DNA of 64,000 bases from assembly GCA_021234155.1 (NCBI GenBank), contig JAJEKV010000052.1, forward strand, positions 7,241,358-7,305,357. The letters run 5' to 3'. The notes under the pieces were generated by a model. That model was not told the origin of the DNA. It did no database searches and saw only the letters and a program-made list of their open reading frames with translations. Both the position numbers and the translations under genes were made by a program. Position 1 is the stretch's first letter. The number at the start of each line of letters is the position of its first letter. This document shows positions 7,296 to 57,775 of the stretch, in pieces. The stretch comes from Isoetes taiwanensis (taxonomy: Eukaryota > Streptophyta > Lycopodiopsida > Isoetales > Isoetaceae).

Positions 7296-7490
7296 TACAT
7301 AAATGCAGGGCCGTTGTGTGCTCTGTGCTCCGTGGACGATAAAATCATATTCTATTCTATTCTATTCTATTCTATTCTATTCTATTCTATTCTATTCTAT
7401 TCTATTCTATTCTATTCTATTCTATTCTATTCTATTCTATTCTATTCTATTCTATTCTATTCTATTCTATTCTATTCTATTCTATTCTAT
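7296..7490 (+). repeat. LINE 3' end with (TCTAT)28 microsatellite tail
   Basis: The sequence GTGCTCCGTGGACGATAAAA at about 7,326-7,345 matches the 3' end of the LINE at 5,270-5,300. It runs directly into 28 uninterrupted copies of the pentamer TCTAT (7,351-7,490, 140 bp, equivalent to ATTCT). The long open frames across it (SILFY repeats) are a by-product of a 5-bp unit that lacks stops and are not genes. The tail replaces the poly-A seen in other LINEs and has probably expanded after insertion. Confidence 0.85.
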
Positions 7491-9100: not shown

Positions 9101-10300
9101 TGGCCATTTATTGAAAGAAGTGAAACTGCAGACTTTTTAGGAAGAGCGAGACAACAGATCTCTACATCTTGCTATTTCGACATGATAGCAAACGAAGGTG
9201 AGTTTTAGCAGGGAGTTCTGGCAAACTAGAAATCAGCTTCGAATATAGCGGCCCAAAAAGCAGAGCAAATATATTTTTACTAAGAGGTAGCAATTGTATG
9301 GCAAACCTGGGACCCATTTTGTGGCTACGACTTGATCAGTTATACATCGACTCTATTGAAAGTTTATTGACTTATTATTAAAAATCTTGCACCATTGCAG
9401 TTATCACAATAAGCCTCTTCCTTTCGAAAAACCATTTGTATTGTGCTTTAATTGGGTCTACCTGGAGTAGAAAGGATAACCCAAAAGCCATAACTCAGTG
9501 CTAATGTGTTCTATTTGCTATAATCTAGTTGATCTGGTTCGGTGGTTAATTGTATTGCCATGTTAGTTTATTTGAAATATGATCCATATTGCTATTGATC
9601 TTCATTTGTTCTTGTGATGAGCTACTATTGTAAGAACTTAAAAATATCCCAAATTCCATGAATCCTATCATTTAGTATCAGAGCAAAAGTTTGTGACTCT
9701 TCTGGGATCTATGGGCAGTGGGATTATCAAAGGAATTTGAATTCTTTATTCTTTGAGTTGAATCAAAGAAGTCAGGGGTAGTGATGCTAGAAAATTACAA
9801 GACCGCAAAACACCAGTGCTTTTGCAGGCATGTGCTGCAAGTATTACTATTGGTTCTTGCTTTGATTGAACAAGGAATAAGGATGAATTGGAGATTTTTG
9901 GAGCTTGACAGCAACATATATAATCGTTGAAACTATGTGAATTGTCTTATTTGAGAAAAAGCCTTTATGGCACCTTTGGAAAAGACTGTGTGAAAAGGCA
10001 AAGCAGAAATTTATATCCTCCTTCAGATTATATTTCAATGCGATTGAACAAGATTTTTGTTCCTTGGTGATAAGATTTTTCCAATATTGAAGCGATGAAG
10101 GAGCTGGGCGAAATTGAAGATAGCTACTGCAAGCAAGACCAGAGCAACTGTAAAAAAAGAGAGGGGGTGCAAGGGGCTGAGCTTCTAGGGTGCTAGAAGC
10201 AGAGCAATTGAAAGTGTCTATACCAGCTTGTCGTGGAGACAAGTAGCTTGTCGTGGAGATGAGTAATACCTGCTACATTCCTGATCAAATTTAATTGAGT
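9101..10300 (+). mobile_element. Relic of a non-autonomous LTR element (5' LTR end, PBS, leader)
   Basis: TAGTATCAGAGC at 9,673-9,684 differs from the tRNA-Met primer site by one base. The following 120 bp are collinear with the leader of the complete element at 43,659-47,302, sharing GGGATCTATGGGC, a TTTGAATCAAAGAAG-type stretch and GTGCTGCAAGTAT. Near the 3' part, 10,227-10,243 and 10,247-10,263 each fold into a hairpin with the loop GTGGA, as in that element. The LTR proper lies to the left but I could not fix its start, and no 3' LTR was found. No coding capacity is visible. The 9,847-10,242 minus-strand frame is taken as a shadow. Confidence 0.55.
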
Positions 10301-25609: not shown

Positions 25610-25621
25610 GCTCTGATACCA
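25610..25621 (-). other. Primer-binding site (tRNA-iMet)
   Basis: On the minus strand TGGTATCAGAGC lies directly next to the 5' LTR (which ends at 25,623 on the plus-strand map). It is complementary to the 3' end of plant initiator tRNA-Met. Confidence 0.9.
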
Positions 25622-43653: not shown

Positions 43654-44158
43654 GTCATTGATACGGAGTCATAGCACGGGGGAGTGGTCCACGGCGCTAG
43701 GGTTATGGGGCATGGCAAAACATGGCAAAGTTGTGGAACTATGGCAAGGTTGTGATATCTAGGATGGGGTCGAGAACCATTGGTTGGAGAGATATCAAGG
43801 GGAATCAATGATCAAGCAAAAGGGGCGGACTATTTTGTACAAAAAGGCCATAGATAATATCCATATGATAAGTCATATAATCTAATTAAAGGCAAGGAGA
43901 TATTTTGAGAAAAAGGCAATTACATGCTAAAAAAGGCTAAAGTCGCAGAGAGATCTATAAATAGAACCGAAACTTCAGTTGGACATACGGCAACCAGAGG
44001 TCGGATTGCAGCGACCTTTACCTCGTTGGAACCGGCTCGGAGTCTAATTTCCGAATTGGGGTGGCACATATCCTAATTCATCCGTATGAGGGAGTAATGG
44101 CCGAAAAGGTGACAGGGGGTCACAAATTACTGCCATAGCGACTTCACAGATCTGCAAT

Positions 44159-44860
44159 TCTTGCACTGCGACTCGCATGAAACCAACAAAGCGCCCGATA
44201 GATAGGCTTCTCATTCATCTCAGCAGATTTCTACAATGGTGGACAGTGGATAGCCGCACACATGCGAACTACCCACGAAAAAATAAAGGGAAAATCCAAT
44301 TATAACATTTGGACCCCAAAAACAAATACAATGCTAAGATGAGTGGCTGATGTACCTGCCGAAAGCTTATCACCGGGGGATTAAAAACCCGCCCTTTCGG
44401 GTTTTCGAGGAAAAACCCTAGTGATAAGCCTTCGGCAAGGGGCTTAGACAAACGTAAGGCATAGAATCGCTCCCAAAAACCCGCGCATGGAGAAGTCAAA
44501 ACGGATGGGCCGCCAACCTGCACACGCACATCACCAACAACAAACAAGAAACATACCAAAGAATAGCATCACCGGTGGGTGGAAAAAAGCATCACCCACC
44601 GGGTGGAAAAACATGATAAACAGAACTTGTACAAAATATAGTAAACAAAGAAGGGGGGGAGGGTGGGTTCAAAGATAATAAGGTACTGCTGAGAGAAGAG
44701 GAAGCGCCGATGAAACGTCGATGAAGAACTCTGCAATAAGTAGCAAACGCCCAACCTGACGAACGGCCCAAAACGCATGCGATGCATGCATGCGACGCAT
44801 GCAATGCATGCATGCTCGTCTTGAGCAAGAATGCCGATTCGCTACGCGAATCGACGACAT
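44159..44860 (+). mobile_element. Rolling-circle-like element 1 (Helentron/Helitron2-like), 702 bp
   Basis: It starts TCTTGCACTGCGACTCGCAT and ends with GCAAGAATGC, the hairpin CGATTCGCTACGCGAATCG (44,835-44,853) and 7 more bases ACGACAT. The 5' TCTTGC is inverted as GCAAGA just before the 3' hairpin, the asymmetric inverted-repeat arrangement described for Helitron2/Helentron elements. It lies between two T residues of the host LTR without target duplication. An internal inverted repeat (TGCCGAAAGCTTATCAC / GTGATAAGCCTTCGGCA, about 44,357-44,437) surrounds a second hairpin. It encodes no protein. Confidence 0.6.
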
Positions 44861-45234
44861 TCTTGCACTGCGACTCGCATGAAACCAACAAAGCGCCCGA
44901 ATACCAAAGGACTTCCTTAACAAACTAGGATCGAGGACGAAGGTCACAGGATGAAGGCTAAAGGCCGAAAAGGACAGCAGGAAAGCAACGCCAAATTGGC
45001 CAAACCAGGCAGGAAGAAGCCCCTCCCCTGCCTGGAAACAAATCAAAGAGAATAAGGTACTGCTGAGAGAAGAGGAAGCGCCGATGAAATGTCGATGAAG
45101 AACTCTGCAATAAGTAGCAAACGCCCAACCTGACGAACGGCCCAAAACGCATGCGATGCATGCATGCGACGCATGCAATGCATGCATGCTCGTCTTGAGC
45201 AAGAATGCCGATTCGCTACGCGAATCGACGACAT
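44861..45234 (+). mobile_element. Rolling-circle-like element 2, tandem copy, 374 bp
   Basis: It follows element 1 head to tail with no spacer. The first about 40 bp and the last about 185 bp match element 1 (one difference in the GATGAAACGTCGATG stretch), but the middle is unrelated. It ends with the same hairpin and ACGACAT, and the host LTR resumes at the next T. Tandem units with common ends and different cargo are typical of rolling-circle transposons. Confidence 0.6.
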
Positions 45235-45508
45235 TGCTTTTATGATGTGTGGCTACGTGGAGTAGCTAGACTAGCTTGGAGGGCCAATAAGCCAGATATT
45301 GTTTGCTCATGGTCTACGCGGAGTAGCCAGATACTGTTTGCTGAGCCAGTTGCCAGATGATTGCCATAACCCTGTGGACCCGGTTGGGTGGTTAAGCATG
45401 CTCGTCAATGTATTTATCTGATATATATGATGATCTTGGATCTTGATCTTCAAATAAGATGCTGTTGTTCAGTAGCTTAGCTTCCCATAAATAATGAATT
45501 GTATCAAG

Positions 45509-45520
45509 TGGTATCAGAGC
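45509..45520 (+). other. Primer-binding site (tRNA-iMet)
   Basis: TGGTATCAGAGC lies two bases after the 5' LTR end. Confidence 0.95.
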
Positions 45521-46546
45521 GGAAGTTACGATTCTTTTGGGAATCTATGGGCTATGAAAACATCACCGGGATTTGTATTTCTACTTTGGATTTGAATCAA
45601 AGAAGAAGGAACTAGTGGTGGTATTATACTCTAAGGCTGCGACACACCAAGAATCTTGCAAGATTGTGCTGCAAGTATATGATTGAACTGGTGAATCCTT
45701 GGAACGTGGAGTCCAAGTAAGGAGGATTTGACGACTACTGCTGCAAGTGAAGCTGCAGCATCAGTAGCAGAGAAAAGAAAAGCTCGATGCTTTCGTGGAG
45801 AATGATCGAAACATATGGGACCGACTTGTTGAGAACGAGTTCGGAGTATTGGGGAAATTCCTATGATCCTTTGGGGGATTATGGAATAAATAAAAGCATT
45901 TTGCTTGGGATTGCAGAGTCAGATCGTGGTGATCTGAGAGGCCGGTTGGCCATGGTATAAATATTTGACTTTGGAAGTCATATTAACACTTGACCTTAAT
46001 TGCAGGTTTGCTTAGTGTTAAGCATTGGGAAGGAACTTTACGGACAAGTTGTCAAGGATATGGATGCTAAAATTTGGATGCGGAATCTCAAATTGTTTCC
46101 TATGGGACAGACTTATGGGTAAAGTTTGTAAATTGATTTTCTTTATGCGGAATAGAGAATAAGAATTTTATTTCTTGTGTGTACCCATGGTGGATTGGTA
46201 TCGTGGAGATACTGTATCGTGGAGATACAATCAAGTAGTGCCGCGGAGGTACGAAAGATAATAATGTACCGCGGAGGTATAAGGATATATCGTACTATGG
46301 AAGTACGCGGATATGCATAACTGCTTTTAGAGTTTTGCAAGGATCTAAAATAATGGAAACGCGGAGGTTCCAATGGGTATAAGGTACTGTGGAAGTACAA
46401 TAACTTATATAACTACTCTTGAGTTCGCAGGGTCTAGGAACTCCCAGGTGTACGTTGAACATGGGACAATCACCTTGAGAAGGGATGGACCAAACTGGAA
46501 CGTACTCGAACGATCGCAGACGATCTCTTTTTGAGAAGGGATGGAC
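45521..46546 (+). other. Non-coding internal region with hairpin array
   Basis: No reading frame of note. Seven short stem-loops with the loop consensus RYGGA lie between 46,198 and 46,398 (details under findings). A probable polypurine tract lies at about 46,533-46,546. Confidence 0.7.
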
Positions 46547-47302
46547 TGATATGGAGTCATAGCACGGGGGAGTGGTCCACGGCGCCAGGGTTATGGGGCA
46601 TGCAAAACATGGCAAAGTTGTGGAACTATGGCAAGGTTGTGATATCTAGGATGGGGTCGAGAACCATTGGTTGGAGAGATATCAAGGGGAATCAATGATC
46701 AAGCAAAAGGGGTGGACTATTTCGTACAAAAAGGCCATAGATAATATCATATGATAAGTCATATAATCTAATTAAAGGCAAGGAGATATTTTGAGAAAAA
46801 GGCAACTGCATGCTAAAAAAGGCTAAAGTCGCAGAGAGATCTATAAATAGAACCGAAATTTCAGTTGGACATATCTCGGCAACCAGAGGTTGGATTGCAG
46901 CGACCTTTACCTCGTTGGAACTGGCTCGGAGTCTAGTTTCCGAATTGGGGTAGCACATATCCTAATTCATCCGTATGAGGGAGTAATGGCCGAAAAGGTG
47001 ACAGAGGGTCATAAATTACTGCCATAGCGACTTTACAGATCTGCAATTGCTTTTATGATGTGTGGCTACGTGGAGTAGCTAGACTAGCCTGGAGGGCCAA
47101 TAAGCCAGATATTATTTGCTCATGGTCTATGCGGAGTAGCCAGATACTGTTTGCTGAGCCAGTTGCCAGATGATTGCCATAACCCTGTGGACCCAGCTCG
47201 TCAATGTATTTATCTGATATATATGATGATCTTGGATCTTGATCTTCAAATAAGATGCTGTTGTTCAGTAGTTTAGCTTCCCATAAATAATGAATTGTAT
47301 CA
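46547..47302 (+). repeat. 3' LTR, 756 bp
   Basis: Intact partner of the 5' LTR, with the TATA box CTATAAATAG at 46,841-46,850 and hairpins at 47,065-47,079 and about 47,127-47,139. It shows the undisturbed target CTGCAATTGCTTTT (about 47,041) into which the rolling-circle-like elements inserted in the 5' LTR. Confidence 0.9.
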
Positions 47303-47307
47303 GTCAT

Positions 47308-48214
47308 ATACTGCAAGTCCCAAACTGTAGCAAACCGAAACTCTTACTCGAAGCTGTAGTCAGAAGCTATGGCTAGAAGCCCCCCAACGCCAACTGATAT
47401 GGATCATCCCCTGTCATTATTAAATTGGATATTTTAGTTTAGAAAAAGAATGGGCCTAAAGGAATACTTGATGTATGAGTACCTAAATTCTCTCTGGATG
47501 AGCGTGATGTTGCAGACAAAAAGTTGATGGCACAAAGATGTGCGCTGCATAGTCTATGGCTCAAGATCTTGGCATGGTTTAGTTTTCTTCAGTTGTGTTG
47601 CTACACTTTATTTGCCAAGCATTTGTGGAAGTCGTCAATATAACAGAGGCTTATTCTGTACTGCAAGCCCAAACAGACATAAACTGAAAAAATAAATAAA
47701 TAAATAAATAGTTGGGCTATAGTTAGCAAACAGGCCGAAAATGAATGTTCAGACCTCCAATTCAGTTTGGAGTTTGCCTTCATGCATCTCTGTGGCCTCT
47801 TGAAATCTATGTTTTTTTCAAACATCATCAACAATAACGTGTTCCAGAAGTCGGAGAGCAAGAACAGAAATTTCATGCACTGTATCAAATGGAAATAAAC
47901 ATCTGCTTGAATAAAGATGCTGAACTTTTGTACGAGATGGAAGCTATGGTTAGCAAACAAGTCGAATCTGTCATAACAACATACAAGCTCCATGGGAAAG
48001 GAACTTCTATGAATACTGTTTTCAAAGTTGAGAACAGGTGCTCAAGCGCGACAACGACACAAACACTTCTAAACAACAGCAACAGATCCCACATGGACAT
48101 CAATAGAAAGATCTCAGAGATTATGTCAGTTTGGTAGCAATGCAGCTATATTCGGCCATATACAGTTAGCTTACCAAGTTCAAACAGTTTTTCTTAGGCA
48201 AAATAAGGCACAGG
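47308..48214. other. No gene recognised
   Basis: Short frames on both strands without recognisable domains. An (AAAT)n-like tract lies at about 47,690-47,710. Confidence 0.35.
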
Positions 48215-55706: not shown

Positions 55707-57775
55707 GCAATAGATCGTGGAGGTCTAAGCATGGCAATGAGCTATATTCTAGCTGGCAGTGCAATATGATTTTGCATTTTAACTTTTTGGCATTGATAGA
55801 AAGGCATGTTTATTTGTGAGTCAACTCTGAGGCAGTCATCAACTAAGAGACATTGTCTGGACATAGAAAATGTCCATGGGACTGGGTAGTAACTCAAGGG
55901 CAATGGTCCCCTCAGATATTATTATGTATGAGCATGGCTAAAGACTATTCCAGGCAAAAAATATTTTGGGAAAAGATTGATATGGAGCTTAACCCAAGGA
56001 TTGATTTTGATTTTTAGACAAGTTGGTGGTGCTAGAAAGCATGGGTCTTTTTCTTTTTTTAAAATAAAAGGAGTTGTCAAGATAATTTTTGGACATGTAA
56101 ATAAATCTTTTGCTAACATTATGTGAAAACATAAGCATGCATTTTTTTCTAATGCATGTTGGACATGTGGTGGTCAACATGCAAGTGTTGCATGCAACTT
56201 TTCTATTGCATATTGATCTTACGAGAGTGTGCATAGGCTTTGGGAAATGTGGATTTCCTATCTTACTTTAAGGCTCGTCTATGGTTTGGAAATACAAATA
56301 TGACCATTGTATTGAAGGAAATACAAGAAAAATTTTTTTAGGGTATTGTGGTCATTTACGGCTATGGTCGTGGCGGGGAAGGCGAGATCGGTCGCGGTGG
56401 CGGAAGGCAGATCATGGCGAGCTCTACCTTGAGTGAATATCACACTAGCGGCCGGATTTGTAGTTGGATATCTTAGGCCAAGGCTATGGAAACACTCTGT
56501 TCTTTTCTGTTTAAAAATAAGGTTCTTCAATGCAAGAATGATCCTGCTATATTCCTTGATGTCTTGGGGCTGCTAAATTCGTGTACCAGAAGGTTGATGG
56601 TCATGGTCAACGAGAAAAGCTAATGCAATGGCAAAAAAAATGCAAACAAAGAACCGGGGCTCAAGAAATGGGCTTCATTTACGATGCATGCAAGACCCGG
56701 ATTCGCAAGAGGAAGGACTTTACCCGCAAATGCCCGGACATAAATCAAAGGAAGTTTAATGCATTGTAGCGAGAAGATATGAAGATCATCTATCTCCACA
56801 AGTTGTGAATATGGCGTAGGAGGTTCCACATAAAAATCAGGTTTTTAATCTTTGAATTGTTTTTGGGCTCTCTAGAGAACATAAGCGTTTGCATTATGAG
56901 TGCGACATATGCTTATGCTTTTCGATAATTCTATCAAACACTTAGTCTACTTGGTGAATGATCAGAATGTAACATTGAGGGGACTTTGCATTATTGAAAT
57001 CGGCTAAAGGCGGGGACTTTGCATTATTGAAATCAGCTAAGGAATAATATTAATTTTAGCAAGTTTAGAGGGTACTACTACATAATGCATAAGCATAGAT
57101 AATGGCGTTGGCTAATATATTCTCCTTTCATTTTCTCTTGCTAATTCTAATTAGGGGCAAAAGGCACAATGGGTAATCGGTGATGGCGAAAATCCCAATG
57201 TACCTTTTGGCCCCCCGATACTGGTTTTCACGCCTAACGAGTCTTGATTTGGCTGCAGCAGTGCGGGATTTTCTTCCCATTGTTCCTTTTGCTTATGTAG
57301 TTGGAGTTGGCTGGAAGAATGATGGAGTTTTGGAAGAGTCTATAGGTGAGAAACAATCTTGGTGTCCTTAAGTTCATCTACATTGACAAAAACGCGGAGT
57401 CAAAGCGGTTGTAAATGTCAACTTTTGTTAAATCTAGAATGCATTTATATTTTGAATTTTAAACATGAAACACAATAGAAAGTTATTTAAGGTTGAAGGC
57501 TTTATTTTCAACTTCATAGCTAGTTGTGAGATGCATGTGTTATACAAATGATTTCTATTGAAATAAATTGCTACTTGTACAGATGTAAACTTTGACCATA
57601 TGAATTTATACAAACTGCACAAAGTTATTTAAGGGCTATTTGGACAGATGTTATGGTTGAGTAAAATGGGTAAAAAGATACTATCTTTGGATAAACTCAC
57701 GGTAATAGGATGATAATACCAGCGATGGATTGGTGAGGTGGATGTTGGATCTAGGTTTACTAGGTCTTACCGGCT
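55705..57775 (+). repeat. 2.07-kb duplication, copy 1
   Basis: Runs from AGGCAATAGATCGTGG to TCTTACCGGC and is nearly identical to 58,488-60,551 at an offset of about 2,783 bp. Internal plus-strand frames are exon-like (for example RDFLPIVPFAYVVGVGWKND near 57,265) but I cannot assign a protein. Most differences from copy 2 fall at CAG or CTG. Confidence 0.85.

Follow-up and report, generated by a model that had tools for sequence, protein, structure and literature searches.

Short hairpins with a constant NYGGA loop in a noncoding LTR retrotransposon family of Isoetes taiwanensis: a possible RNA recognition signal

Introduction

Can the RNA of a noncoding LTR retrotransposon carry a repeated structural signal that is read by a protein? 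The question is raised by a locus of Isoetes taiwanensis in which small hairpins with nearly the same loop, on differing stems, are clustered within an element that encodes no protein. The locus lies in a stretch of 64,000 nucleotides, here termed the window, and positions are those of the window unless a contig is named. An original prediction had described seven such hairpins with a constant RYGGA loop. The entry of noncoding LTR elements into the particles of others is described as assumed rather than demonstrated in the available text of PMC7215508. The anatomy of the element, the excess of its hairpins over chance, their fate in related copies and the readings that may account for them are considered here.

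Structure of the element

The whole element spans 43659-47302 and is bounded by two copies of the target-site duplication (TSD) GTCAT, the left at 43654-43658, directly before TGATACGG, and the right at 47303-47307, directly after the 3′ LTR. These limits come from a combined analysis of direct repeats, TSDs and the polypurine tract. The 3′ LTR (46547-47302, plus strand) is 756 bp in length and has TG...CA ends. The 5′ LTR (43659-45506, plus strand), delimited by direct repeats and alignment to the 3′ LTR, is split by a nested insertion at 44157-45235. Over 753 ungapped alignment columns the two LTRs show 19 mismatches. The insertion, of 1,079 bp with ATT at each end, is not element sequence; it contains two 193-bp direct repeats that are 99% alike (44669-44861 and 45043-45235) as well as palindromic GATTCGCTACGCGAATC stretches.

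The internal domain of ∼1.04 kb (45507-46546, plus strand) lies between the two LTRs. The primer-binding site TGGTATCAGAGC (45509-45520, plus strand), which we take to be of the tRNA-Met type, lies 3′ of the 5′ LTR, and the polypurine tract GAGAAGGGATGGAC (46533-46546, plus strand) is immediately 5′ of the 3′ LTR. Together with the TG...CA ends and the 5-bp TSD, these features make the element an LTR retrotransposon. The string TGGTATCAGA is also present in Copia leaders, and TGGTATCAGAGC is also found on the minus strand at 25621, adjoining a Gypsy gag frame.

The LTR ends are fitted by matching 5-bp TSDs at three other loci, two solo LTRs (L013 and L025) and a copy of 2690 bp (L046); the remaining listed TSD site (L012/L041, one place) has a false end inside a primer-binding site. 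The LTR as originally drawn covered no more than the final third of the actual 756-bp LTR, and those limits are ruled out by the TSD and polypurine tract analysis. The description as a non-autonomous LTR element was borne out. No sense ATG open reading frame longer than 57 amino acids is found in 45236-47302, and no plus-strand stop-to-stop frame reaches 150 amino acids in 43659-47302. The element is noncoding and non-autonomous.

A TATA box, TATAAATA, is found in the 3′ LTR at 46842-46849 (plus strand), with a second copy at 43956. It places a putative transcription start near 46870, and the LTR hairpins described below are assigned to R-U5 on this basis. The hairpins would thus be 3′ of the start, either within R-U5 or in the internal domain, which is noncoding; the one exception is a weak 4-bp match at the very 5′ end of the LTR (43659 and 46547), which would fall in U3.

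Hairpins with a constant loop

All hairpins given here are on the plus strand. Unless stated otherwise, they were found by a scan for the loop RYGGA on a stem of at least 4 pairs, G.U allowed. The 5′ LTR carries TGGCTAC-GTGGA-GTAGCTA (45250-45268) and CTAC-GCGGA-GTAG (45314-45326), and the 3′ LTR, in its putative R-U5, carries TGGCTAC-GTGGA-GTAGCTA (47063-47081) and CTAT-GCGGA-GTAG (47127-47139); this is the LTR pair originally noted, recovered at 45252/45314 and again at 47065/47127. Within the internal domain, HPa, TTCTTTAT-GCGGA-ATAGAGAA (46139-46159), is followed by the array proper. This consists of HP1, (TG)GTATC-GTGGA-GATAC(TG) (46196-46214), HP2, TGTATC-GTGGA-GATACA (46213-46229), HP3, GTGCC-GCGGA-GGTAC (46238-46252), HP4, TGTACC-GCGGA-GGTATA (46265-46281), HP5, CGTACT-ATGGA-AGTACG (46291-46307), HP6, TGGAAAC-GCGGA-GGTTCCA (46354-46372), and HP7, GTACT-GTGGA-AGTAC (46384-46398). 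HP6, read from the sequence, has an internal A.G mismatch. All seven units first listed, at 46198, 46214, 46238, 46266, 46292, 46354 and 46384, were found again, and in 6 of the 7, counting G.U, the stem is fully paired for 5 bp or more, the exception being that at 46354.

Further members, at 46139, 45919, 10246, 55711 and 58492, extend the original list. The one at 45919-45937, TCAGATC-GTGGT-GATCTGA, was read from the sequence and marks site C, which has a homologous site in diverged lineages. A candidate bulged hairpin, CTTGGAAC-GTGGA-GTCCAAG (45698-45717), was noticed by eye and is outside every test count. The hairpin reported at 10227 in a relic is present, as GCTTGTC-GTGGA-GACAAGT (10226-10244), with a second one beside it, GCTTGTC-GTGGA-GATGAGT (10246-10264); both belong to site B, and the relic itself comes from a diverged lineage within the same superfamily, not from the same family. 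At 55711 and 58492, in two copies of a nearly identical segment 2,781 bases apart, TAGATC-GTGGA-GGTCTA occurs, possibly as another relic of site C. A palindrome with another loop, TGCTTA-GTGT-TAAGCA, is present at 46009-46024 and also in the diverged L074, L077 and L087. Elsewhere in the window, TATTC is repeated 28.6 times without a mismatch at 7348-7490, and the MFS frame at 12.4 kb has its best hit in Selaginella, at 57% identity.

The constant loop is found on many stems far more often than chance predicts. Against 200 dinucleotide shuffles, the region 45233-47302 has 13 RYGGA-loop hairpins where the shuffle mean is 0.4 (maximum 3), and the array at 46180-46420 has 6 where it is 0.03 (maximum 2). 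Across the whole window, 21 such hairpins are on the plus strand and 4 on the minus strand. A census that disregards the loop sequence was taken of 5-bp stems with 5-nt loops in 16 stretches, namely the element, the relic and 14 stretches of the deep lineages described below. A loop NYGGA is found in 28 of the 170 distinct sense hairpins and in none of the 135 antisense ones. The four commonest pentaloops are GTGGA, TTGGA, ATGGA and GCGGA, and GGA occupies loop positions 3-5 in 29 hairpins where 3.6 are expected. The excess is limited to position 3 of pentaloops, apart from 7- and 9-nt loops in which the same GGA strings reappear, the inner one or two pairs being counted as loop. In the 14 deep stretches alone, 24 NYGGA hairpins are present, compared with 0.6 (maximum 3) in shuffles.

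The same bias is seen when NYGGA strings are taken as the starting point. All five flanking pairs are formed around 8 of the 25 such strings of the internal domain and around 27 of the 127 in the deep lineages and relic; elsewhere in the window the figures are 9 of 427 on the plus strand and 2 of 357 on the minus strand. The pair that closes the loop in the 28 distinct NYGGA hairpins is C-G in 19, U-A in 6 and U-G in 3. The constant loop of the original prediction thus stands, far beyond chance; its consensus RYGGA is better written NYGGA because TTGGA is present in deep lineages. A GNRNA pentaloop fold is unlikely as a general rule since ATGGA and TTGGA loops occur, and loop-loop kissing as a dimer signal was set aside because NYGGA does not appear to be self-complementary.

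The stems differ by site: GTAYY/RRTAC, CTAC/GTAG, CTTGTC/GACAAG, CAGATC/GATCTG, TGGCC/GGTCA and TTCTTTAT/ATARAGAA. The proposed change of both stem sides together holds in this sense, between different hairpins.

Family copies and diverged lineages

Copies were sought in 1,658,258,908 bases of the genome (1110 contigs). The LTR-end query gave 980 candidates and the array query 861, of which 40 were scored in each case. Copies are present both singly and in tandem arrays with common LTRs. One tandem array, at C1100:12.498-12.512 Mb, has at least 8 units with a period of ∼1,908 bases, and others are found at C1032:3.36-3.37 Mb and C1018:28.285-28.290 Mb. The TSD and polypurine tract analysis showed the view that most copies are tandem arrays to be wrong; true arrays do exist. 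Widely spaced LTR pairs on C1047, C1058 and C1100, considered as autonomous copies, resolved into separate elements that adjoin one another, a nested insertion and an array.

Hairpin units are gained and lost among copies. The number of intact units per array stretch ranges from 0 to 10 (n=33), and extra units, which arise in tandem, are at differing places in C921, C1055, C1032 and C1037. Five C1032 copies with 0-1 units look like read-error damage. Odd clustered changes round CAG/CTG and GCGG strings, seen in C1032 and C1018 copies and in the window at 55.7-60.5 kb, likewise look like long-read error and not evolution.

The relic query gave 293 candidates, and among the 40 that were scored, matches other than the relic itself range from 87% down to 66% identity. 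The deep-lineage set comprises 15 short stretches at 13 sites, of which 14 were used and L084 was omitted; L078 continues L077 and L079 continues L073. Lineages that are 66-87% alike retain hairpins with the same loop, some on other stems. Hairpins are kept at matching sites, namely B (CTTGTC), C (CAGATC), D (TGGCC), HPa (TTCTTTAT) and the start of the array, and site B in L077 has five hairpins in a row. The loops are GYGGA, ATGGA and TTGGA, with a few GTGGT or GTGGG. As 8 of the 13 deep sites were picked by alignment of the hairpin stretch itself, the set favours the finding of hairpins. Five sites were picked by the leader alone (L083-L087). Three of these have 1, 1 and 5 hairpins with stems of at least 4 pairs and loops NYGGA or NYGGT; L086 has no perfect hairpin and L084 no hairpin. 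L084 was also rejected as an autonomous relative, its stop-to-stop frames being at most 76 amino acids. The hairpins are sense-specific, and diverged lineages carry them again on other stems, as is expected of an element recognized in sense RNA.

Outside this genome, no relative was found in the plasmid collection, and a 20-22 nt LTR pattern has no exact match in viral or GTDB contigs.

Stem changes and conservation

Covariation within the same hairpin was assessed in a young set of 24 copies (mean column identity 95%) and in the deep lineages. In the young copies 98.2% of stem cells pair, and 2 pairs have changed on both sides, as happens in 194 of 500 shuffles. Pairing is broken in some copies, against the covariation as first worded: HP4 has a C.A mismatch in 12 of the 23 copies with letters. 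The sense G.U state occurs at 16 pairs and A.C at 6 (one-sided binomial 0.026, relatedness ignored).

In the deep lineages 9 pairs have changed on both sides, compared with 4.0 in shuffles (17/5000), and G.U and A.C types number 15 to 11. Four of the nine double changes come from the row L082 at HPa (AATGTTAT-GCGAA-ATAACATT), which was placed by hand and was noticed because it pairs. With this row removed, there are 5 double changes compared with 3.0 (727/5000 shuffles), and 88.2% of positions are paired compared with 87.2% (348/5000). At present depth, covariation at the same site does not rise above shuffles in the 24 young copies, and the deep excess is owed largely to the hand-placed row; by itself (194/500; 727/5000 without L082) it is no proof of selection. 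Higher conservation of the hairpin columns was also rejected, their value of 0.785 against 0.739 for random blocks not being significant (2833/20000).

These figures bring forward an explanation that needs no structural selection: chance palindromes would have been spread by short tandem duplication and held palindromic through template switching from arm to arm as they were copied, with the loop constant by descent. HP1-HP5 and HP7 do have a common GTA...TAC frame, extra units arise in tandem, same-site covariation and conservation are not significant, and hairpins with other loops also exceed shuffles (165 vs 133, s.d. 12). Common descent sits poorly, however, with the same pentaloop on stems without visible kinship, with a GGA excess limited to one pentaloop position and with the surplus of sense G.U over A.C in young copies. 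This explanation is considered unlikely, and it is one of the two main alternatives.

Comparison with known systems

LARDs and TRIMs, including Cassandra, are noncoding plant LTR elements that are thought to move in trans, as the present element would. The LARD internal domain is several kb in length and conserved between host species. The core internal domain of the Isoetes element likewise lacks protein products, and it is ∼1.04 kb long. In TRIMs the LTRs are short and the internal domain is all but absent (PMC7215508), unlike the 756-bp LTR and the internal domain found here, and TRIM tandem arrays with common LTRs (reported in PMC4717578) resemble those described above. The Isoetes element differs from both groups in that it has many small one-loop hairpins and not one large fold; the available part of PMC4717578 describes nothing alike. 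Among noncoding LTR retrotransposons it is larger than a TRIM and noncoding like a LARD. In a limited survey of open-licence literature, hairpin arrays with a constant loop were not found described for any LTR element. Retrozymes are small noncoding plant LTR elements (PMC9695139) that are characterized by a hammerhead ribozyme in the LTR. No hammerhead was found at the Rfam gathering score in the window, nor among three weak Rfam matches up to E 10 in 45200-47310; no other Rfam family reached the gathering score in the window.

Arrays of hairpins with a common loop are known from viruses. HBV, with its RGAG loops, and STNV have several short stem-loops with a common loop motif on different stems, in the portions of two papers available (PMC7612645, PMC6281560), and the dispersed packaging signals of such viruses resemble, from sequence alone, what is found here. 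The STNV-1 packaging signals defined in vitro are, however, described as having no discernible significance in vivo (PMC6475782), which is a warning against too ready a packaging reading of the Isoetes array. Retroviral Psi hairpins also present a GGA-containing loop in R-U5 or leader RNA. In HIV-1, the zinc knuckles of nucleocapsid bind guanosines that are exposed in the GGAG loop, and replacement of that loop has little effect on packaging, according to the available text of PMC7599994. The Psi loop is a GGAG tetraloop, whereas here there is an NYGGA pentaloop, in many near-identical units and with no gag.

The bacterial sponge RNAs CsrB and RsmZ are stem-loop arrays with GGA in loops mostly closed by C-G, as here. 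In RsmZ, a protein is titrated by several stem-loops that carry A(N)GGAX in a loop closed by C-G (PMC4005645, as far as that source was available). CsrB and RsmZ are bacterial small RNAs, whereas the present array belongs to a plant retroelement, and its loops mostly begin with a base other than A. ATGGA accounts for 6 of the 28 distinct NYGGA hairpins, which does not fit the Csr/Rsm rule of A(N)GGAX closed by C-G and then U-A. RsmZ and the viral and retroviral packaging hairpins resemble the Isoetes array in loop and layout, without sign of kinship.

It had been suggested that the signal was hijacked from an autonomous partner, and such a partner was not found. Ten stretches of 341 bases, each located 5′ of a Copia gag domain that has a long open frame, were drawn from 150 scored of 6919 candidates; two of the stretches are nearly identical. 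None of the 10 leaders has a sense NYGGA hairpin of at least 4 pairs, despite 36 NYGGA strings; one antisense NYGGA hairpin is present in L088. As far as these ten show, the hairpin is no general feature of Copia leaders in this genome.

With no partner among the Copia leaders sampled, a host RNA-binding protein comes into consideration, for which the array would be a decoy or an element of export, stability or translation, in the manner of RsmZ and CsrB and with an unrelated protein. The titration of a protein by RsmZ provides the precedent, and the varying number of units is as expected of a dosage element. Even so, mobility of the element depends on a helper anyway, which makes packaging the simpler demand. 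Binding by a host protein is judged rather improbable.

Folding and interpretation

Folded alone, 15 hairpins that were assessed have predicted energies of -2.2 to -8.3 kcal/mol. For most units, the majority of pairs are predicted to reach probabilities of 0.55-0.99 in short windows, with HP1 at ∼0.4 and HP6 lower; in wider windows the arms of different units compete, which lowers many pairs to 0.2-0.7. The 241-nt array at 46180-46420 folds better than its shuffles, with z -2.7 in sense and z -4.1 in antisense. The stronger antisense figure might suggest that the palindromes act in DNA, as double-stranded protein sites or single-stranded cDNA hairpins, but this is very improbable, since dyad DNA sites usually keep their arms and leave the spacer free, whereas here the arms vary and the middle is fixed, and among the one-sided changes of young copies sense G.U is the commoner state.

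The explanation we favour, tentatively, is recognition of the sense RNA, most likely for packaging in trans by Gag through the NYGGA hairpin array. Recognition is suggested by the enrichment, the strand bias, the different stems and the preference for G.U over A.C in young copies. If transcribed and folded in the cell as predicted, the RNA of this noncoding family would carry many short hairpins with a fixed NYGGA loop, mostly GYGGA closed by C-G. The stem would merely present the loop, its sequence being free provided that pairing holds, and a protein acting on sense RNA would read the loop. The reader would most likely be the zinc-knuckle nucleocapsid part of Gag from an autonomous LTR element, and the array may then be a multivalent packaging signal that takes the noncoding RNA into another element's particles. 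Packaging is proposed because R-U5 and the leader are where retroviral packaging signals sit. Against this reading stand the covariation and conservation results, sense folding weaker than antisense, the competition between units and the Copia search that yielded no partner.

A broader proposal, possible but doubtful, is that a noncoding superfamily has kept a variable array of same-loop hairpins through 13-34% divergence as a multi-site assembly code akin to the dispersed signals of RNA viruses, which would be its main functional content, and with it parasitizes the particle of another retroelement.

Should a host protein read the loop, the array would point to a GGA-loop reader in plants, which would be new. 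If packaging in trans is true, the family would represent a natural case of a satellite RNA that has evolved a multivalent docking array, and so compact a repeated hairpin would make the question of particle entry directly testable.
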